Shown piece by piece: positions 1,088-34,048 of a stretch of DNA of 41,501 nucleotides. Numbering within the stretch: the first letter of the stretch is position 1; every line of letters starts with the position of its first letter. This DNA is from Dehalococcoidia bacterium (GTDB lineage Bacteria > Chloroflexota > Dehalococcoidia > Lucifugimonadales > Lucifugimonadaceae). The notes beneath the pieces are model-generated. The model saw only the letters and a program-made list of their open reading frames with translations, was not told the DNA's origin and searched no databases. Position numbers and translations under genes: made by a program. The stretch lies in NCBI GenBank assembly GCA_026421185.1, contig JAPKCH010000012.1:1-41501 (forward strand). Reading direction: 5' to 3'.

Positions 1088-2257
1088 TTGAAAATCACCG
1101 CTGTTCGAGCGATTCCCATGTCGGATCCGATTCCAGTTGAACGACAATTCCGTTCCGATCTTGGAACAAGGGTGAAGTCAGACAACGTCATGGTGTTCGT
1201 CGAGACCGATGAGGGGCTTACTGGTATTGGCGCTTCACTTGGTAACCCTGCTGTCGTTACAGCAGCGATCAATTCGGAACTAGGACCTGAGATCATCGGA
1301 GAAAACCCGATGTTCTCTGAACGCATCTACGAGAAGATGTACAACGGATCGCGGTGGGCTCCGGCTATCGAGACCGGCATCTCCCAGCCCGATCCGAGTC
1401 GACGCCGCGGAATCATAATGGAAGCGATCTCCGGAATCGACATTGCCGTATGGGATGTGAAATCTCAGGCACTGGGCATTCCGATGTATCAGGCTATTGG
1501 TGCAGTGCGTGATTCTATTCGAGGTTACGCAAGCGGTGGCTGGGCTCCCGGTGAAGAAGCTGAAGTCGAGCTGGGTGGATACGCTGCTAAAGGCTTCAGC
1601 GCCGTGAAGATGCGGGTTGTTGGGCACGACGGTTTCAAGGTCGACAACACGGTTACTCGGGTGGCTGCCGCACGGCGCGGCATCGGGCCAGATGTTGAAC
1701 TGATGGTCGATGCGCACGGTTCGTTGGATGTCGCTTCGGCTATCAAAGTGGCCAGCGCTATCGAGGAGTACGACATCTCGTGGTTCGAGGAGCCGGTTTC
1801 TCCCGATGATCATGCGGGTCATGCTCGGGTTAGAAATTCAACTTCGATTCCTATTGCGACAGGCGAACGAGAGTTCACTCGTTTTGATTTCCAGAGCTTG
1901 CTCGATCACGAGGCGATTGATGTTGCCCAGCCGGATGTTGCGAGGGCAGGGGGCATAACCGAGATTCGGCGTATTGCAGCACTGGCTTCGGCACGGGGTG
2001 TGAAGGTTGCACCGCACGCTTGGGGTTCAGGCGTGTTGTTTGCTGCTTCGATTCATCTGTCAATGGCGTTACCGAACACTCATATTCTTGAGGTATCGCA
2101 GGGCTACATGCCGATGATGAACGAACTGTTCAATGAGGAATACGATATTCGAGAAGGTCGAGTGCACGCTCCGACTCAGCCGGGTATCGGTTTTACGCTG
2201 CGTGACGACGCAATGGAGCGGTTCAAGTACGTTGAAGGCCCTGAGTACGTCTTTTAG
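1088..2257 (+). CDS. Enolase-superfamily (mandelate racemase-like) dehydratase/racemase 1
   Basis: This 389-residue protein has the two-domain fold of the mandelate racemase/muconate lactonizing group: an N-terminal capping domain (about 1-125), then a TIM barrel. These enzymes abstract the alpha proton of a carboxylate bound to Mg2+, usually racemizing or dehydrating sugar acids. Visible ligands are D208 (in VDAHG, with H210), E234/E235 (FEEP) and E260 (TGERE). Catalytic candidates are K174-x-R176 on strand 2 and the D283/H310 dyad (QPD and PHAWGSG). KxR instead of KxK points to an acid-sugar dehydratase rather than a mandelate-type racemase. The start is TTG at 1088, supported by AGGA at 1077-1080 and by the family-typical MKIT opening. 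It is monocistronic after a terminator and convergent with the next gene. The substrate is unknown. Confidence 0.88.
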   Translation: MKITAVRAIPMSDPIPVERQFRSDLGTRVKSDNVMVFVETDEGLTGIGASLGNPAVVTAAINSELGPEIIGENPMFSERIYEKMYNGSRWAPAIETGISQPDPSRRRGIIMEAISGIDIAVWDVKSQALGIPMYQAIGAVRDSIRGYASGGWAPGEEAEVELGGYAAKGFSAVKMRVVGHDGFKVDNTVTRVAAARRGIGPDVELMVDAHGSLDVASAIKVASAIEEYDISWFEEPVSPDDHAGHARVRNSTSIPIATGEREFTRFDFQSLLDHEAIDVAQPDVARAGGITEIRRIAALASARGVKVAPHAWGSGVLFAASIHLSMALPNTHILEVSQGYMPMMNELFNEEYDIREGRVHAPTQPGIGFTLRDDAMERFKYVEGPEYVF

Positions 2258-14868: not shown

Positions 14869-16023
14869 TTACCAGTCGGCTACCGATCCGTCGTTTTCGT
14901 AGTAGTACTCGCCGCCAAGTTCCTTGTGGTAGCCATAGGCATCACCATCGTAGACCTTCGTGGCTTCCTTTTCATCGAGTTCAACACCAAGGCCTGGAGT
15001 GTCCCATAGGTCGATGTGACCATCTTTGACTTCCCACGGCTTATTGAGCAGTCCTTCACCAAGACCAGCGTCGACCTGTTCCTGAATCAGGAAGTTAGGC
15101 ACAACAGCGTCGACGAGCATGCAAGCAGCTAGAGCCAACGGGCCGATGGCGCAGTGGGGCATTATGTGTTGGTAGTAGACCTCAGCGTAGTTTGCGATTC
15201 GCTTCAGCTCGGAAGGCCCGCCACAGTGGGCGACGTCCGGCTGCAGCAATGAAACTGCTTGCTTCTCGATTACTTCACGGAATTCCCAGCGAGACAGAAG
15301 GCGTTCGCCTGTTGCGAGTGGGAACGAAACCTGTTCTTGGATTCGTTTGAGTGCATCCGGATTTTCCTGTGGTACAGGTTCCTCAACGAACATCGGACGC
15401 ATGCCCTTGATTTCGTTGCAGATTTCGACTGCTAGGCCAGGAGTCATCTTGCCGTGGAAGTCAAAACATAGTTCGACGTCGTCGCCAACCCACTCACGCA
15501 TTGTGTAAGCAGCTTTGACAAACTCATCGATTCGTGATGGTGGCTCGTGGCCGCGCCATGTTCCCACAGGTCCGGATTTATAACCGGTGTATCCGCTCTT
15601 CTGGAGCATAGTGAGACGATCGCGTGATTCCTCCAGGCCTTCGTCTGAGAGGTCGTTGATTCCCCAGTGAGCGTAGACGCGGATCTTGTCGCGTACGTTT
15701 CCTCCCATAAGCATGTAGCTAGGCACACCGTAGTGCTTGCCTGAGATGTCCCACAGTGCAGCGTCGATGGCCGCGATTGCCGTCATGTTGTGTGCGCCAC
15801 CTCGGAAGAACGAGGATCGGTACATCTGCTGCCAGTGGTGTTCAATCCTGAGAGGATCTTTACCGATCAGGTATTCGGCGAACTCATCGATTGTCGCAGG
15901 AACACTCTGGGGTTTGCCCTCAAGGGTGCTCTCCGCCCAGCCTTCGATTCCACTATCGGTTGCTATTCGAATCAGTCGCGTGCGCTGTCGCGGTGCGAAC
16001 TGATCAATTCGTGTAATTTTCAT
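14869..16023 (-). CDS. Enolase-superfamily dehydratase 2, galactonate dehydratase-like
   Basis: This 384-residue protein has the capping domain (1 to about 110) and barrel of the mandelate racemase subgroup. Metal-ligand positions are D188 (DFHGK, with H190), E214/E215 (VEEP) and E240 (TGER). D263 (QPD) and H290 (MPHCAIGPLALAAC) form the His-Asp dyad. The DFHG and HCxxGPLALAA motifs are those of D-galactonate dehydratase and relatives, which use His in DxH as the acid and lack a KxK base; only K149-S is found at that strand. The family dehydrates aldonic acids to 2-keto-3-deoxy acids. ATG at 16023 fits the MKIT opening. The AKR gene follows in the same direction. D-galactonate itself is not proven. 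Confidence 0.9.
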   Translation of the reverse strand: MKITRIDQFAPRQRTRLIRIATDSGIEGWAESTLEGKPQSVPATIDEFAEYLIGKDPLRIEHHWQQMYRSSFFRGGAHNMTAIAAIDAALWDISGKHYGVPSYMLMGGNVRDKIRVYAHWGINDLSDEGLEESRDRLTMLQKSGYTGYKSGPVGTWRGHEPPSRIDEFVKAAYTMREWVGDDVELCFDFHGKMTPGLAVEICNEIKGMRPMFVEEPVPQENPDALKRIQEQVSFPLATGERLLSRWEFREVIEKQAVSLLQPDVAHCGGPSELKRIANYAEVYYQHIMPHCAIGPLALAACMLVDAVVPNFLIQEQVDAGLGEGLLNKPWEVKDGHIDLWDTPGLGVELDEKEATKVYDGDAYGYHKELGGEYYYENDGSVADW

Positions 16024-16209: not shown

Positions 16210-17010
16210 ATGTCCACAGAGATAACAGTTCCACAAACCGGTGCCGAAGTACGACAACTCATTCGTGAAGGTCGATTTAATCAACCGACTTCTGGTGTAG
16301 CCCCTCACCACGTGCAGGCAAATATTGCGATTATTCCTAAGGATGTGGCATTCGAATTCTTGCTGTTTTGCCAACGAAATCCGAAGCCATGCCCCGTTGT
16401 TGAAGTGATTGAGTCCGGGGAGGTAGAGGCTGCTATTACAGCTCCTGGGTCAGATATTCGTACTGATGTACCGCTATACCGGGTTTACAAAAACGGTGAG
16501 ATGGTCGACGAGCCACTGACCTTGGAATCGCACTGGCGCGAAGATCTGGTTACGTTCTTGCTGGGGTGTAGTTTCTCGTTTGAACATGCTCTGATGGCGA
16601 ACGGAATTGATCTCCCGTACTACGGCACTGATCGCAATGTTCCGATGTTCATTACTGATATTGAAACTACTCCGTCTGGTCCATTCTCGGGACCTACAGT
16701 GGTCTCCCATCGCTGGATTCATCAGGACAAAGTAGTGCGTGCTGTCCAGGCAACTTCACGCTTTCCCGGCACGCACGGTGCTCCGATTCATATTGGTGAT
16801 CCTGCCAAGATAGGAATCACCGATATCACCAAGCCAGACTTCGGTGAGGTTTGGGAGCAGAGCGATGAAGATCAAGTGCCAGTGTTCTGGGCATGCGGAG
16901 TGACGCCGCAATCGGTAGCAATGGCGTCGAAGCCTGAACTGATGATTACTCACTCACCGGGTCACATGTTTGTGACCGATCTTATGGACGAAGACTTGGC
17001 TGTACTTTAG
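16210..17010 (+). CDS. DUF1445 / YcsI-type protein, N-terminal half of D-glutamate cyclase
   Basis: The 266 residues match the DUF1445 (YcsI, putative hydro-lyase) family. Marks are an N-terminal VRxxIREGR helix, the segment APHHVQANIAIIPKDVAFEF, RNPKPCPVVEV, the central SFSFEHAL and the C-terminal SPGHMFVTD. In vertebrate mitochondrial D-glutamate cyclase (DGLUCY), which converts D-glutamate to 5-oxo-D-proline, this domain is fused to a DUF4392 domain. Here DUF4392 is encoded by the next gene, so the two products probably work together. It is divergent from dehydratase 2 across a 186-base spacer. No signal peptide or membrane helix is present. The reaction is inferred from the fused homologue. 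Confidence 0.85.
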   Translation: MSTEITVPQTGAEVRQLIREGRFNQPTSGVAPHHVQANIAIIPKDVAFEFLLFCQRNPKPCPVVEVIESGEVEAAITAPGSDIRTDVPLYRVYKNGEMVDEPLTLESHWREDLVTFLLGCSFSFEHALMANGIDLPYYGTDRNVPMFITDIETTPSGPFSGPTVVSHRWIHQDKVVRAVQATSRFPGTHGAPIHIGDPAKIGITDITKPDFGEVWEQSDEDQVPVFWACGVTPQSVAMASKPELMITHSPGHMFVTDLMDEDLAVL

Positions 17011-17067
17011 CCGGGTGAATTGCAACGCAATGTTGGATGCGAAGTATTTCTGACACATGGGAATCTA

Positions 17068-17934
17068 ATGCCTAACTCATCTGTATTTACCAAAATCGAA
17101 GACATCATTCTGCAAGACGATATTCGCGGGATGAAGGCGCTTAGACAGCACATGCCAAAAAAGTGGCTTGAATCGTCGGCGCAATTGCTGCTCGATCACC
17201 CTGGCAAAATTCTAATTGCCACAGGCTTTTACATCCTGAAATCAGGAGAGCCTGAGACTGACGGACCTCCTGGTGCAGTGGCAATTGGGGAAGCTTTGAA
17301 GGTACTTGGAAACACAGTTGCCTACGTAACCGATGAGAAATGTTCAGTCGCCGTACGTGCGATTGCTGGCGATGACGAAGTGGTTGAATTTCCAATCACT
17401 ACTCATCACCAATCGAGTATATTTGCGCACAAATTGTTAGTTGAACATGCCCCGTCGGCGCTCGTGTCAATCGAAAGAGCAGGGCTGTTGGGAGACGGTA
17501 CGTATCGAAACTGGCGTGGAGTCGATTTCTCGAAGCACAATGCGAAGATCGACCACATGTTTGAAGAACACCCGTACTCGGTCGGCATCGGTGATGGTGG
17601 AAACGAGATCGGTATGGGAAACATGCGCCACGTGATCCCGAATATAGAAAATCTGCCTGACGACCCCTGCATCACAACCACCACCGAGTTAATTACCGCC
17701 AGTGTTTCGAACTGGGGCGGTTACGGTTTGATCGCAGCATTATCGTTGAAGACTGGCAAGAACCTGTTGCCGTCAGTCGAACAAGGCTACAAATGGGTGA
17801 AAGAAATCGTAGCTGTAGGTGCGGTTGAGGGAATGTCGGGCGAGTCGAAGGACTGGGTCGACGCACGCGCACCCGGCGATGACGCAATGTGCTTACGTGA
17901 CTTGCATATACTGCTGGCAGCAGAAGGGCTTTAG
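17068..17934 (+). CDS. DUF4392 protein, C-terminal half of D-glutamate cyclase
   Basis: I place the start at ATG 17068 (MPNSSVFTKIEDIILQD), preceded by GGGA. A TTG at 17020 in the same frame would add 16 residues (QRNVGCEVF and following) unlike the family. The 288 residues show the DUF4392 hallmarks: KIEDIILQDDIRGM, ILIATGFYI, ETDGPPGAVAIGEAL, YVTDEKC, SIERAG, GTYRNWRGVDFS and VGIGDGGNEIGMGN. The glycine-rich loops suggest nucleotide or phosphate binding, with acidic residues for metal. It follows the DUF1445 gene by 57 bases and presumably forms D-glutamate cyclase with it. Its last four bases overlap the convergent MFS gene. Confidence 0.87.
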   Translation: MPNSSVFTKIEDIILQDDIRGMKALRQHMPKKWLESSAQLLLDHPGKILIATGFYILKSGEPETDGPPGAVAIGEALKVLGNTVAYVTDEKCSVAVRAIAGDDEVVEFPITTHHQSSIFAHKLLVEHAPSALVSIERAGLLGDGTYRNWRGVDFSKHNAKIDHMFEEHPYSVGIGDGGNEIGMGNMRHVIPNIENLPDDPCITTTTELITASVSNWGGYGLIAALSLKTGKNLLPSVEQGYKWVKEIVAVGAVEGMSGESKDWVDARAPGDDAMCLRDLHILLAAEGL

Positions 17935-19214
17935 TTCTTTTTACGCGACGGCTGTGTAACCACACGTTTGGAAGTACGGGTTATTGTTTCCCGTACAACG
18001 AAGATGAGCATTAGCGTGCCGAATACGCCTACTCCGGCTGTTGCTAGGGACGCGACGCCGAGCGTAACAACCTGAGCGATTCCGCCGATTGCGATAGGTC
18101 CGCTTGCACCACCAGTGTCTGAGATAAGTCGCCACACGCCAAGGAATTCACCTGGATTCTCTTTCGGAGACAGGTCGGTTCCCATTATCAGAACAAAGCC
18201 GCTAGAGAGACCGTTTCCTAATCCCGCAAGCAGCCCTACAGCTAGCAATGCGCCGAACGAGCCTGTGAGCGGAATTAGGGCGATTGCTAACGATAGAACG
18301 ATAAACGCAGGAATCCCAGTAGACTTACGCCCCCATTTGTCCATGGAGTAGCCAACGATTGGGAAAAGCATTGAATCTATGGCGAATGATGCGGTGGCGA
18401 TGTAACCAATCTTGGCTTCACCGAGACCGAGCTCACCACCCCAAACCGGAATTATGAATTCACGTCCTGCCCTGATGAACTGAAGAGTAACTGCTGCTAC
18501 GCCAGCTGTTGCAAAATCTCTGCGATGTCGATTCATAACGGTTCCAAGCTCTGCAAATACGTTGTTATGCGCTTTTGAACGAGCGGGTTCGACCATATCT
18601 TTGGTGGTCGAAAGAACTACCGTCAAAGTGAGTACTGCGACAATTGCCTGTGCGAAGAATGGGACTTTAATACCAACGTACTCAGCCAAGATTCCACCAA
18701 GTAATGGACCAAGAATTGTCGCTATTCTAGAAATACCACCAAACAACGATAATGTCCGACCTCGAACCTCGATTGGAACGACCGCTGCGATGTAGGTGTG
18801 CCTAGAAATGCTCCACAGAGCGAAACTGACTCCTGTGAGTAATCTGGCTATGATCAACGACGTTATGTTCGGAGATAGCCCTGCCCAGATAGCAGCGACT
18901 CCGAAGAGGACTACACCGGCCAGCATTGTTCGACGAAGTCCGAGCCGGGTAACCAGAATTCCTGCGGGCACATCGAAGATCAACATGCCGATGTGTCGTG
19001 CGGCGATTACGACACCGATCATTCCTATCGCCGCAGCCATTTCCTGCTTCGCAAAACCTGGAAGAACCGGTATCAGGATGCCTTGTCCCACTGACAGTAG
19101 GAAGGATGGAACGTAAACGGGCCACACGAGTGCACGTATGGTTGAACTAACTGAGTTGTGACCTCTATTGGTCTTTGGCGCTTGAGGTGTGCCTGGAGCC
19201 TCTGACGATGACAT
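17931..19214 (-). CDS. MFS transporter 1
   Basis: This 427-residue protein has 12 predicted membrane helices and major facilitator marks. The loop 2-3 motif is weak (DVPAGILVTRLGLRRTM), with RLLTGVSFALWSISRHTYIA in helix 4 to 5 and the second-half loop GYSMDKWGRKSTG. The closest type is the multidrug/drug:H+ antiporter group (DHA1-like). Both termini are hydrophilic and cytoplasmic; the last 15 residues are basic. It is convergent with and overlaps the DUF4392 gene by four bases. Whether it exports a compound or imports pyroglutamate-like acids is unknown. Confidence 0.85.
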   Translation of the reverse strand: MSSSEAPGTPQAPKTNRGHNSVSSTIRALVWPVYVPSFLLSVGQGILIPVLPGFAKQEMAAAIGMIGVVIAARHIGMLIFDVPAGILVTRLGLRRTMLAGVVLFGVAAIWAGLSPNITSLIIARLLTGVSFALWSISRHTYIAAVVPIEVRGRTLSLFGGISRIATILGPLLGGILAEYVGIKVPFFAQAIVAVLTLTVVLSTTKDMVEPARSKAHNNVFAELGTVMNRHRRDFATAGVAAVTLQFIRAGREFIIPVWGGELGLGEAKIGYIATASFAIDSMLFPIVGYSMDKWGRKSTGIPAFIVLSLAIALIPLTGSFGALLAVGLLAGLGNGLSSGFVLIMGTDLSPKENPGEFLGVWRLISDTGGASGPIAIGGIAQVVTLGVASLATAGVGVFGTLMLIFVVRETITRTSKRVVTQPSRKKN

Positions 19215-25378: not shown

Positions 25379-26554
25379 TTAAGCGTGAAGTCGTGCCCAC
25401 TCGGGATCGGGATGTGATGCAATAAAATCGTGATCTAATTCGTAACCGAGACCAGGCTTATCGGGAAGATGCAAATGGCCATCCCGAACGTCCAATGGCT
25501 CGGTAATTACTGAATTGTAGTTTTTCAGCGAGTGGTCCGACATCTCAAGACGGTAGATATTAGGAACATTCATGAGAACGTGTGCACCAGTGATTACGTT
25601 GAACGCTCCAGAAGCGTCGTGCGGACTGATTGGTACATAGTAGGTTTCTGCTAGAACTGCGATTCGTTTCATTTCTGAAATTCCTCCAGTCCAACAGATG
25701 TCGGGCATGATGTAGTTGACCAGTCCTTCCTGTAAATATGGAGCGAAGTCCCAGCGAGTGTATTTTCGTTCGCCAATGCAGAGATTGATATCGGTGTTTT
25801 GTCGAAGTTGGCGGTGCGCATCGATGCTCTCGGGCTGCAATGGCTCTTCGAACCATGTGAGATTGTGTTTCATCATTCGATTACATAGTTCAGTGGCGGT
25901 CGAAACGTCGAAATTACCGTGTGCATCGATCATGAGTTCGATATTCGGTCCGATTGCTTCTCTGAGTGCAGTCATTAGGTGGTCAGCATATTCGGCACCG
26001 GAAGGAGAGATTTTGCCATCGATGTACCGACGATGGTGCTTGCCCATCTCTGGTTGGAATGGGTCGAGTTTGAGTGCTTGGTAGCCAAGTGCGATCTGTC
26101 GCTTGGCGTCGGCTACACACGCATCGATATCGTCGAGATACGAAACGTGTGAGTACACAGGTACTGATTCACGCATCTTGCCACCGAGTAGATCCCAAAC
26201 GGGGCGACCTAGAGCTTTACCCTTGATATCCCAAAGTGCCATATCGATACCACTGACGAGTGTCGTTCCAAAGCCTCGTGAACCTAGTGTGCCAAAACGA
26301 CGATAGATCCGATGCCAGATAGCGTCGATGTCGGCGGGATCTTGTCCGACCAAACCTTCTGAAAAATCCTGACCTTCAAGATCGTTCTTAAGCATTTCGT
26401 ACGTACGCCCTACGACCAATGCGCCGCCACCACCTGAATTGGTCGATTCGCCAACTCCTGTTATTCCCTCATCTGTATCGACTTCAACGAACAGCCATGA
26501 ACGGTTACTGCCTTCAGGTCGAGTTAGGTACACGCGTAGGTCGGTGATTTTCAT
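25379..26554 (-). CDS. Enolase-superfamily dehydratase 3
   Basis: I set the start at ATG 26554 (MKITDLRVYLTRPEG), preceded by GAGAG; an upstream in-frame start would add 13 residues not seen in the family. The 391-residue protein has metal ligands D210 (IDAHG, with H212), E236/E237 (FEEP) and E262 (GERK), the dyad D285/H312 (MPD and SPHDASG), and a strand-2 motif K162-L-D164. KxD instead of KxK or KxR sets it apart from the other two paralogues here. A Gly-rich 20s/40s capping loop (STNSGGGGALV) may cover the active site. It likely dehydrates or racemizes a sugar acid. The divergent neighbour is a sugar-isomerase-like TIM barrel. Confidence 0.9.
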   Translation of the reverse strand: MKITDLRVYLTRPEGSNRSWLFVEVDTDEGITGVGESTNSGGGGALVVGRTYEMLKNDLEGQDFSEGLVGQDPADIDAIWHRIYRRFGTLGSRGFGTTLVSGIDMALWDIKGKALGRPVWDLLGGKMRESVPVYSHVSYLDDIDACVADAKRQIALGYQALKLDPFQPEMGKHHRRYIDGKISPSGAEYADHLMTALREAIGPNIELMIDAHGNFDVSTATELCNRMMKHNLTWFEEPLQPESIDAHRQLRQNTDINLCIGERKYTRWDFAPYLQEGLVNYIMPDICWTGGISEMKRIAVLAETYYVPISPHDASGAFNVITGAHVLMNVPNIYRLEMSDHSLKNYNSVITEPLDVRDGHLHLPDKPGLGYELDHDFIASHPDPEWARLHA

Positions 26555-26754
26555 GATAAAGCTCTCTCTGTGTTCGACTGGAAGGCGATTCAACTGCTGT
26601 TGTTGAAAAAGCTCTAGACCGATTCATCGTTGGAACAAAGCGACCAGATAGTACACCCCTGACAGTGGTAAACTCCGCCCGATCATCAGAACTCGTCGGA
26701 TATACCGACGAGCTGCAAACGTTTACTGCCACGTATTACAGGAACTAAACCAAC

Positions 26755-30262: not shown

Positions 30263-31225
30263 ATGACTACAACTACTTCAGAGACTAAATTCGAACCAGT
30301 TGCAGGTTGGGCAAAGCTTCCTACCGGTGTGACTTTTCGAGGGGATGCGACTTCGATAGCGGTTGATTCGAAAGACAATGTCTACGTTTTCAACAGGGGA
30401 ACCGAGCCGATAGCTGTCTTCGATATCGATGGTAATTTCCTTCGGGGAATGGGACACGGTGAATTCGTCCGCCCTCATGGAATTGAAATCGACTCTGACG
30501 ACAATTTGTATTTGGTAGATGACAACGGTCACTTCGTTCAGAAACGAACTAACGATGGTGAAGTGCTCTTCACACTCGGAGATAAAGGTGAGCCTGCTGA
30601 TTGGCAGGGCGGAGGCATGTTCAACCGTCCGACTGATATTGCTATCAACTCCAGCACTGGAGAGTTTTTTGTTTCGGATGGGTATGGGAACTCACGGATC
30701 CACAAGTTCGATTCCAATGGCAAACATATTTTGTCTTGGGGCGAACCTGGTACTGATCCTGGGCAATTCAGCCTGCCTCACAATGTGAGCATGCTCGGTA
30801 CTGACAAAGTTATCGTTGCTGATCGAGAGAATTTTCGACTACAAATCTTTACAACCACTGGTGAATTTGTGAAACAGATACATATTCACCACCCCATGTC
30901 AGTGACTCAGGGTAAGGGCGATGACGCTGCGTTGTACGTCGGAGAGATGATTCCGCCTCCAGTTCAGCAAGGTGTTCCTAATCTTGGAGCGATGATCGCT
31001 GTCCTATCTCCTGAAGGAGAGTTTTTGCAGCACTTGGGCGGACCACTACCCGGCGATGGAGTAGATCAGTTCACTGCCCCTCACGGTGTATCGACAGATT
31101 CTCAAGGCTCGGTTTACGCCGCAGAAGTTGCTTGGACTAACTATTTCTCTAACCCCGAAAATTCGGGAACCGAAGAAATCCCACTTGGCGAGGTTGTGAG
31201 CCTTCGTAAGTGGGAGCGAGTTTAG
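30263..31225 (+). CDS. NHL-repeat beta-propeller protein A
   Basis: The 320 residues are mostly NHL repeats forming a predicted six-bladed propeller. Repeats start at about 27 (TSIAVDSKDNVYVFNRG), 72 (RPHGIEIDSDDNLYLVDDNG), 122 (RPTDIAINSSTGEFFVSDGYG), 172 (LPHNVSMLGTDKVIVADREN) and near 275 (APHGVSTDSQGSVYAAEV). The pattern resembles the lyase domain of peptidylglycine alpha-amidating enzymes, whose calcium- and zinc-dependent activity cannot be assumed here. There is no signal peptide, so it is likely cytoplasmic. It is 77 bases upstream of its close paralogue B. Function unknown. Confidence 0.85.
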   Translation: MTTTTSETKFEPVAGWAKLPTGVTFRGDATSIAVDSKDNVYVFNRGTEPIAVFDIDGNFLRGMGHGEFVRPHGIEIDSDDNLYLVDDNGHFVQKRTNDGEVLFTLGDKGEPADWQGGGMFNRPTDIAINSSTGEFFVSDGYGNSRIHKFDSNGKHILSWGEPGTDPGQFSLPHNVSMLGTDKVIVADRENFRLQIFTTTGEFVKQIHIHHPMSVTQGKGDDAALYVGEMIPPPVQQGVPNLGAMIAVLSPEGEFLQHLGGPLPGDGVDQFTAPHGVSTDSQGSVYAAEVAWTNYFSNPENSGTEEIPLGEVVSLRKWERV

Positions 31226-31302
31226 ATGCTCCAAAGAGCACTTGGTAGCTCTCATTAACCGCCGTAACTACTTTCAAGCTTCGAACAAATTAGGAACTAA
31301 TC

Positions 31303-32250
31303 ATGGTCAACGCCGCAACATCAACAACCGTCTACGAGCCCGTTCCATACTGGGCCAAGCTTCCTCACCCAATGCTTTTTAAGGAAGCAACATCGGTAGC
31401 AGTCGACTCTAACGACAACGTGTACGTTTTCAACCGGGGAAATCACCCTGTCATCATTTTCGACAAAGACGGTAATTTCCTAGAGACATGGGGCGCGGGC
31501 GAGTTTGTTAGACCTCACGGAATCACAATCGATGCCGACGATAACTTGTATCTCGCCGATGACGATGCCCACGTAGTAGAGAAACGTACAAAAGAAGGGA
31601 AGCTCATTTTCCGTATCGGTGAAAAAGGCAAGGCTGCAGCATGGCAGGAGGGAGATCCGTTTAATCGCCCAACACACGTCGCAGTTCACCCTGATTCTGG
31701 TGATCTATTCATTTCAGATGGTTACGGCAACTCTCGTGTCCACAAGTTTGATTCCGACGGGAAACACATCACATCTTGGGGTGAGCCTGGATCACGGGAG
31801 GGGCAATTTTCGCTGCCACACAACATAGCGATGAATGGCACGGATAAAGTTACGGTGGCAGATCGCGAAAACTTCAGGCTTCAGACGTTTACCACCGAGG
31901 GCGAATTCGTCAAGCAGATTCATTCACACCGTCCCATCGCTATAACCAACGGGAAGGGTGCCGATACGAACCTGTATGTCGCAGAGGCTGGCCCTCCACC
32001 AGTTCAAGAAGGTGTTCGAAGGCTTGGACTTCGGGTAGTGGTTATGGATCTAGAAGGCAACGAAGTAACTCGTTTCGGAAACGAACATGGTGGAGAAGGT
32101 CACGATCAATTCATCGCACCGCACGCTATGGCTGTCGATTCAGAAGGCTCTGTCTACATTGCAGAAGTATCGTATACAGCGTTCGGATCACATCAAACCC
32201 CAGTGCGAGAAGTAGCGAGTCTTCGCAAGTGGAAACGCGTAAGTGGGTAG
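31303..32250 (+). CDS. NHL-repeat beta-propeller protein B
   Basis: This 315-residue paralogue of protein A shares its whole length, including the start (YEPVPYWAKLPHPMLFKEATS against FEPVAGWAKLP) and the end (REVASLRKWKRVSG against GEVVSLRKWERV). Conserved blade motifs are SVAVDSNDNVYVFNRGN, RPHGITIDADDNLYLADDD, VHPDSGDLFISDGYGNSRVH and VADRENFRLQTF. A tandem duplication is the simplest origin. No signal peptide is seen. A degraded PPOX gene lies just downstream. Confidence 0.85.
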   Translation: MVNAATSTTVYEPVPYWAKLPHPMLFKEATSVAVDSNDNVYVFNRGNHPVIIFDKDGNFLETWGAGEFVRPHGITIDADDNLYLADDDAHVVEKRTKEGKLIFRIGEKGKAAAWQEGDPFNRPTHVAVHPDSGDLFISDGYGNSRVHKFDSDGKHITSWGEPGSREGQFSLPHNIAMNGTDKVTVADRENFRLQTFTTEGEFVKQIHSHRPIAITNGKGADTNLYVAEAGPPPVQEGVRRLGLRVVVMDLEGNEVTRFGNEHGGEGHDQFIAPHAMAVDSEGSVYIAEVSYTAFGSHQTPVREVASLRKWKRVSG

Positions 32251-32273
32251 TTAGTCTTCTTTAGGAGAGAAGG

Positions 32274-32678
32274 ATGAGTCCTGCAGGGGGAAACTTTCGA
32301 CTGATGAGGTCAGTGAATTCATAGTACTACCAATAATTGCTCGCATCGGCGCGGTCAGATCCGATCGGTCACGCCACGTGACTGCAATGTGGTAGCAGTG
32401 GGATGGTGAGGTGCTGTGGGTTATCCCTTGCAGTAAATCCACCTAGTACGAAAATGTAAATCAGGAACCTCGTGTCTGCATATGATGTGAATCCCGATCA
32501 CACTCCCGTCACCGTCGAAGGTCCCGTCGCTCTGCTAGGGCGTACGAAAGAAATCGCCGACTAGATGGCCATTCGTTATATGGGTCAGACGGACCAACTT
32601 ACGCAGCGAAAACGGCGTGGAGAATGGCACCCTTGTTACATTGTTACGGTTGATGAACCTGACAAAGCGAAGAGTTAA
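32274..32678 (+). pseudogene. Decayed PPOX (pyridoxamine phosphate oxidase-like, FMN/F420-binding) gene
   Basis: A good AGGAG (32263-32267) and ATG (32274) open the frame MSPAGG. One base appears lost in the G5 run near 32286-32290, after which the frame reads LSTDEVSEFIVLPIIARIGA, RSDRSRHVTAMW, TAG (32393), QWDGEVLWVIPCSKST, TAG (32444), YENVNQEPRV. A two-base (GT) loss near 32472-32476 shifts to SAYDVNPDHTPVTVEGPVAL, then TAG (32562), MAIRYMGQTDQL and on to TAA at 32676. Reassembled, this is a typical roughly 135-residue split-barrel PPOX protein (WDGE..W.I and the VTVEGPA strand). Two frameshifts and three nonsense codons make it non-functional. It sits between NHL B and NHL C. Confidence 0.8.
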
Positions 32679-33154
32679 GAGTCTGGAAGAGTGTGGGAGT
32701 TTTTGGCACCCAGATTAGGATCTGCGTGCCGTGTTCTTGATAGTGAAGCACGGTGTACGAATTTATTAATTCGCTGAATGGGTCTGACGGCTAAAAGTAC
32801 ACACTTGGCTCGTTTACAAGATGATCAAGCAACGACCGGTGAAACTGATACATGTTTTCGCTGATCAATCGGTCTAATGATCCCGGAACTGACGCCAGTT
32901 GTTATCTATTGCTGCCAGCACCGCGTTCTTTCGATCTTTCAATGTGATTGACTCCAAACGTGCAGCGCTGCACTTCCTAGATTGACCATCTGAGCGATTG
33001 TCGGTCCAAGTCATTTCGTTCCAGAAATGCTCGAGTAACTGCATCGAGACGAATTTCAAATTTATAGCGTTGACAGCTTACGTTCGGAGGGCTAGCGTGG
33101 CGACCCGCGTAGATTTGCGCAATAAGAACTCGATAATCCGATGGTGGCGAAGAT
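32679..33154. other. Non-coding or decayed region before NHL C
   Basis: No convincing gene is seen in these 476 bases. A minus-strand frame of 61 codons (32874-33059, TTG start, MQLLEHFWNEMTWTDNRSDG in its middle) has amphipathic, protein-like composition but no recognisable family and a stop shortly upstream. It may be a remnant like the PPOX gene beside it. AACTG-ACGC-CAGTT type small hairpins are present but unremarkable. The promoter of NHL C probably lies in the last 100 bases. Confidence 0.45.
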
Positions 33155-34048
33155 ATGACAACAGTTGGCGAAGGTAAATTTCAGTATGAAGTGGATCGGG
33201 ACTGGTTGCGCCATAAACCGGCATTCTGGGAACTGGGACAGTGTGCCGACGTCGGCGTCGACTCTCAGGATCGTGTATGGCTGTTCAGCCGTTCTAAGCA
33301 CCCTGTTACCTGCTGGACGTCAGACGGCAAGTTCATAGGCTCTTGGGGCGACCTGGGGCAAGATAAAGGTGAATTCAGAGTCCCGCACGGAGTATTCATC
33401 GACCAAGACGATCACATTTGGCTAGCCGATCACCAAACGCACCAACTTACTAAGCACAACGAAAACGGCGACGTGCTTATGGAGTTAGGTACACATGGTT
33501 ACGCCAACATCACCGTTACGAGCACTAATGAACAAGGAGCGCCGTTCAATATGCCAACCGGACTCGCAACAGCAACTGACGGAAGATTGTTTGTTACAGA
33601 CGGGTACGCCAATCGACGAGTCCACCGCTTCAGCGCTGGTGGTCAGCTTGAACACTCATGGGGAGAGGCAGGCAAAGGACCTGGACAATTTTCGATTTTG
33701 CACAAAGTTGGTGTCGACAAAAACAACAAGGTGTACATTTGTGATCGAGAGAACAATCGAATTCAAATTTTCGATGAGAATGGTAATTATTTGACCGAGT
33801 GGACCGATGTCGTTGGTCCTGGTGATATTTTCTTCAACGATGAAATTGTTTATGTCGTCGAGCAGGGCGGTGGCAATGGCGTATCGATCTGGACACTCGA
33901 TGGCGAGTTGATTACACGATGGCGCGGTAACCCTGATGCTTGCCAGGCTGCTCATGGTGGATGGTTCGACTCTACAGGCAACATATACGTCGCTGAGATT
34001 GGCGAACTCGGACAAGGGCAGCGAGTTACTAAGTTCAGCTTAATTTAA
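33155..34048 (+). CDS. NHL-repeat beta-propeller protein C
   Basis: The 297 residues are a third NHL propeller, more divergent than A and B. Repeats include DVGVDSQDRVWLFSRSKHP, VPHGVFIDQDDHIWLADHQ, LATATDGRLFVTDGYANRRV, KVGVDKNNKVYICDRENNRI and GGWFDSTGNIYVAEIGELG. The blade around 225-250 (DVVGPGDIFFNDEIVYVVEQ) is irregular. There is no signal peptide. Its last bases overlap the convergent Fur-family gene. The role is unknown; NHL proteins often act as scaffolds or carbohydrate-linked lyases. Confidence 0.85.
   Translation: MTTVGEGKFQYEVDRDWLRHKPAFWELGQCADVGVDSQDRVWLFSRSKHPVTCWTSDGKFIGSWGDLGQDKGEFRVPHGVFIDQDDHIWLADHQTHQLTKHNENGDVLMELGTHGYANITVTSTNEQGAPFNMPTGLATATDGRLFVTDGYANRRVHRFSAGGQLEHSWGEAGKGPGQFSILHKVGVDKNNKVYICDRENNRIQIFDENGNYLTEWTDVVGPGDIFFNDEIVYVVEQGGGNGVSIWTLDGELITRWRGNPDACQAAHGGWFDSTGNIYVAEIGELGQGQRVTKFSLI

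Follow-up and report, generated by a model that had tools for sequence, protein, structure and literature searches.

A DUF1445-DUF4392 gene pair in a SAR202 genome, predicted to encode a split D-glutamate cyclase

Gene content of the locus

The source genome belongs to SAR202, genus Candidatus Lucifugimonas (Chloroflexota). The window (the whole stretch of DNA analysed, 41,501 nucleotides) contains a DUF1445 gene followed by a DUF4392 gene on the same strand, each the only copy in the 2.13 Mb genome (Table 1). The two domains are not on one polypeptide; a stop codon and a short gap separate their ORFs. The gene order, PF07286 then PF14336, corresponds to the N- to C-terminal domain order of the vertebrate protein. 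The initial annotation had described adjacent DUF1445 and DUF4392 genes, 57 bases apart, in the domain order of the fused vertebrate protein, and the ORFs, their spacing and their order all agree with this description.

Table 1. Positions of the features of the window mentioned in the text.
Feature	Position	Strand	Description
Enolase-superfamily-like gene	1088-2257		Judged by eye
Enolase-superfamily-like gene (MR/enolase)	14869-16023	-	Matches galactonate dehydratase and MR_MLE
DUF1445 (PF07286) gene	16210-17010	+	266 aa, putative hydro-lyase; profile matches and phmmer match to 3db9_A
Intergenic gap	17011-17067	+	57 bp
DUF4392 (PF14336) gene	17068-17934	+	288 aa, GLUCM-like C-terminal domain; profile match and phmmer match to TON_0340
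MFS transporter gene	17931-19214	-	Convergent with the pair
Enolase-superfamily-like gene	25379-26593		Judged by eye
Beta-propeller-like genes	30263-34048	+	Three similar genes in a row; NHL-type by eye

The domain assignments, made by motif in the initial annotation, are confirmed by profile searches in which both proteins match far above the curated cut-offs. The DUF1445 protein matches the whole PF07286 (D-Glu_cyclase) profile (positions 1-143, 200.7 bits, E 1.2e-59, cut-off 25 bits) as well as the NCBIfam model NF003969, annotated as "putative hydro-lyase" (383.8 bits, cut-off 324). Its solved relatives are 3db9 (phmmer E 5.6e-78 for 3db9_A) and 2pif. The DUF4392 protein matches PF14336 (GLUCM-like_C) over profile positions 1-287 of 291 (218.1 bits, E 2.3e-64, cut-off 27.9 bits) and has no matching model in NCBIfam; TON_0340 is the sole solved relative found (phmmer E about 6e-27). 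The mechanical ORF of this gene opens at a TTG at 17020, and relatives align from the ATG at 17068.

The metal ligands of the DUF4392 protein are E63, D65, E136, D176, E180, and D265. The equivalents of TON_0340 E59, D61, E115, D157, and E161 do not vary in an alignment of 24 DUF4392 sequences. The sixth ligand, D265, corresponds to TON_0340 D246 by an ungapped offset, the TON_0340 sequence used ending at residue 240, and is invariant in the 23 sequences that reach this position. Many residues are also invariant among 25 aligned DUF1445 sequences; we know of no assigned active site in this family. Single-chain models of the two proteins, built from shallow alignments (10 close homologues), had mean pLDDT values of 42.9 and 31.8 and were unusable.

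The initial annotation had noted an MFS carrier beside the pair. This gene is a neighbour kept across the family and overlaps the 3′ end of the DUF4392 gene by 4 bp, yet it is encoded on the opposite strand, and because of this convergent orientation we rejected it as an operon member and place it outside the transcription unit of the pair. The MR/enolase gene at the other side was rejected as a partner; it matches galactonate dehydratase and faces away, though it is kept in the genus. There are three enolase-superfamily-like genes in the 41 kb of the window, and expansion of this superfamily is known in SAR202. A promoter and terminator scan gave nothing above the shuffled background, and the sole promoter-like match was no better than shuffled sequence.

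Conservation and gene order in relatives

The DUF4392 protein is found at 83-91% identity at 17 public-genome loci, all from Chloroflexota/Dehalococcoidia MAGs or Ca. Lucifugimonas marina JH1073, which carries the pair at about 90% identity. A DUF1445 gene lies just upstream on the same strand at 15 of these loci, and the remaining two are cut by contig ends. In most relatives within the genus, about 48-57 bp separate the genes, with longer gaps of about 660 bp and about 320 bp at one locus each; the length of the gap is kept and its sequence is not.

Among 245 genomes of the class, 22 encode DUF1445 and 19 encode DUF4392, and all 19 of the latter have both (Fisher p 1.5e-25, across 10 families and with no correction for common descent). 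The two genes are adjacent on one strand, DUF1445 first, in 12 of the 19 pair genomes, and are split over different contigs in two. Apparent one-base overlaps of the two genes occur in three genomes. Five of the 19 have the order DUF1445-pxpA-pxpB-pxpC-DUF4392, including one for which the DUF1445 position was taken from the class survey, the gene being absent from the ORF table. The genes in between form one cluster and encode LamB_YcsF, CT_C_D, and CT_A_B proteins. Two tandem DUF4392 genes are present at one of the loci listed for the other four genomes. Overall, 14 pair genomes encode pxpA and five lack it; among the 226 other genomes of the class, it is found in 6.

Given the co-occurrence in 19 of 19 genomes, the adjacency in 12, and the bracketing of pxpABC in five, the link between DUF1445 and DUF4392 is functional and not due to chance. 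The link that the initial annotation had drawn from the adjacency of the two genes is thus borne out. Its tie to 5-oxoproline metabolism also stands, as the bracketing of pxpABC in relatives connects both families to this metabolism.

In a survey of 400 genomes of the phylum, DUF4392 is present in 40. The examples read from one family beyond the class have the two genes side by side on the same strand with DUF4392 first. In several other families DUF4392, often longer or multicopy, has no DUF1445 in the few kilobases around it, the range covered here. Three loci lie in genomes with multiple copies of DUF4392, among them longer ones, and DUF1445 is not close by. A Pseudoalteromonas plasmid has the order DUF1445-pxpA-DUF4392-aminotransferase IV.

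Predicted function and alternatives

We predict, from sequence, that the pair is a small operon for a split D-glutamate cyclase (EC 4.2.1.48 type) that uses an externally derived or damage-derived substrate, and put the probability of this reading at roughly 0.6. The cyclase assignment is our best guess for the predicted bacterial pair, by analogy with the fused animal protein. To our knowledge, the mouse protein alone among members with both domains has been tested, and we are aware of no D-glutamate cyclase assay of the split bacterial proteins. The mouse protein degrades D-glutamate to 5-oxo-D-proline, and the knockout accumulates D-glutamate (PMC5339696).

The DUF1445 protein and the di-metal DUF4392 protein would act jointly, either bound to each other or one after the other, and D-glutamate would be dehydrated and cyclised to 5-oxo-D-proline. 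The product may join the 5-oxoproline pool, served by separate pxpABC 5-oxoprolinase or hydantoinase/oxoprolinase genes; the source genome encodes pxpABC on another contig than the pair and also has a hydantoinase A/B cluster. A stereochemical step may be missing from this scheme, since growth work on PxpABC concerns 5-oxo-L-proline (PMC13274462). The substrate may be peptidoglycan-derived D-glutamate in seawater organic matter or may arise by stray racemisation.

The initial annotation had proposed recycling of peptidoglycan-derived D-amino acids, which is not supported for the cell's own wall. Family searches of the source genome, which is 96.6% complete so that single absences are not proof, found a single Mur_ligase_M match that reads as FolC by sequence inspection and no other Mur ligase, no Asp_Glu_race (PF01177) match and hence no glutamate racemase family, no DUF1611/DgcN-type (PF07755) match, and only weak ATP-grasp matches to Dala_Dala_lig_C. 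We take DgcN to belong to the DUF1611 Pfam family. SAR202 bacteria have been reported to lack peptidoglycan (PMC10444878; PMC11994032). Because these searches gave neither a peptidoglycan pathway nor a glutamate racemase or DgcN, we rejected recycling of the own wall; the cell more likely uses D-glutamate or 5-oxoproline from outside. The most specific form of this idea is that a wall-less SAR202 cell without glutamate racemase or DgcN assimilates bacterial-wall D-glutamate from ocean organic matter via the split cyclase and PxpABC or oxoprolinase. We regard this full route as rather unlikely. If true, marine surveys of D-amino-acid genes would lack a D-glutamate assimilation pathway; a Mariana Trench survey makes no mention of a cyclase in its main text.

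Loci with one of the two genes argue against a joint cyclase. DUF1445 is found with pxp genes and without an adjacent DUF4392 in the pxp/Nramp/biotin-carboxylase operons of Paracoccus, Lactiplantibacillus, and Klebsiella. Other DUF4392 genes, with no DUF1445 nearby and named "glutamate cyclase domain-containing protein", adjoin alanine racemase, RidA, an Asp/Glu racemase family gene, or amino-acid transporters, and invertebrates have DUF4392 without DUF1445 according to Ariyoshi et al. (PMC5339696). Because each occurs without the other nearby, each may have its own role. The two proteins could be sequential enzymes and not subunits. In this case DUF4392 would by itself be the D-glutamate cyclase, or a different D-amino-acid enzyme, and DUF1445 would work at the 5-oxoproline end, for instance by interconverting 5-oxoproline or preparing it for PxpABC; "sequentially linked" functions were suggested by Sohn et al. 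(PMC5132392). The reported product of the fused vertebrate protein is, however, 5-oxo-D-proline, with no second conversion evident (PMC5339696), and we consider this arrangement possible, if doubtful.

It is improbable that the pair does not cyclise D-glutamate at all, with DUF4392 a small-molecule Mn2+ phosphatase, DUF1445 a hydro-lyase for some other substrate, perhaps serving metabolite repair, and the cyclase name carried over from one mammalian study. The archaeal DUF4392 protein TON_0340 is reported as a weak Mn2+-dependent phosphatase, its six-acid metal site has ligands conserved in the window protein, and the RefSeq label for DUF1445 is only "putative hydro-lyase", but the TON_0340 activity is low and directed towards many different compounds (PMC5132392), and the recurrent 5-oxoprolinase linkage fits glutamate/5-oxoproline chemistry.

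Comparison with known systems

The vertebrate mitochondrial D-glutamate cyclase (mouse 9030617O03Rik, human GLUCM/C14orf159) has the same two domains in the same order as the window pair. The vertebrate enzyme is fused and mitochondrial, and activity was tested for the fused mouse protein only, whereas the window has two separate genes. Closer in form are the split GLUCM_HUMAN homologues of gut genomes, adjacent genes that between them span the human protein, for which counts of 0 and 6 are given that we read as full-length and split (PMC11580864); this tabulation covers gut species and not SAR202.

TON_0340 of Thermococcus onnurineus (PDB 4fc5, 4dwz, 5gl2-5gl4, 5gkx) is of the same family as the window DUF4392 protein and shares all six acidic ligands. 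It was studied alone, whereas the window DUF4392 is paired with DUF1445; homologues of the latter are reported to be absent from archaea (PMC5132392). The DUF1445 genes of pxpABC operons (Paracoccus, Lactiplantibacillus, and Klebsiella plasmids) are PF07286 members like the window gene, as is B. subtilis ycsI, located in the pxpA/ycsG/kipIA operon. Those DUF1445 pxp operons lack DUF4392, whereas in the window genome pxpABC is apart from the pair.

The idea of a split cyclase is not new, because split homologues have been tabulated (PMC11580864) and the DUF1445-DUF4392 fusion was discussed in 2016 (PMC5132392). RefSeq also names such genes, and the pair represents a known enzyme family in a form that is usual in bacteria. 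New here are the count of genomes with both genes, the flanking of pxpABC by the pair in relatives, and the setting in a bacterium without a wall. SAR202 is an abundant ocean group with cultured strains, and if the assignment holds, the pair is testable for D-glutamate use in this group. Because the halves of the animal enzyme are separate proteins in bacteria, the pair would in that case also help to assign a role to each half.
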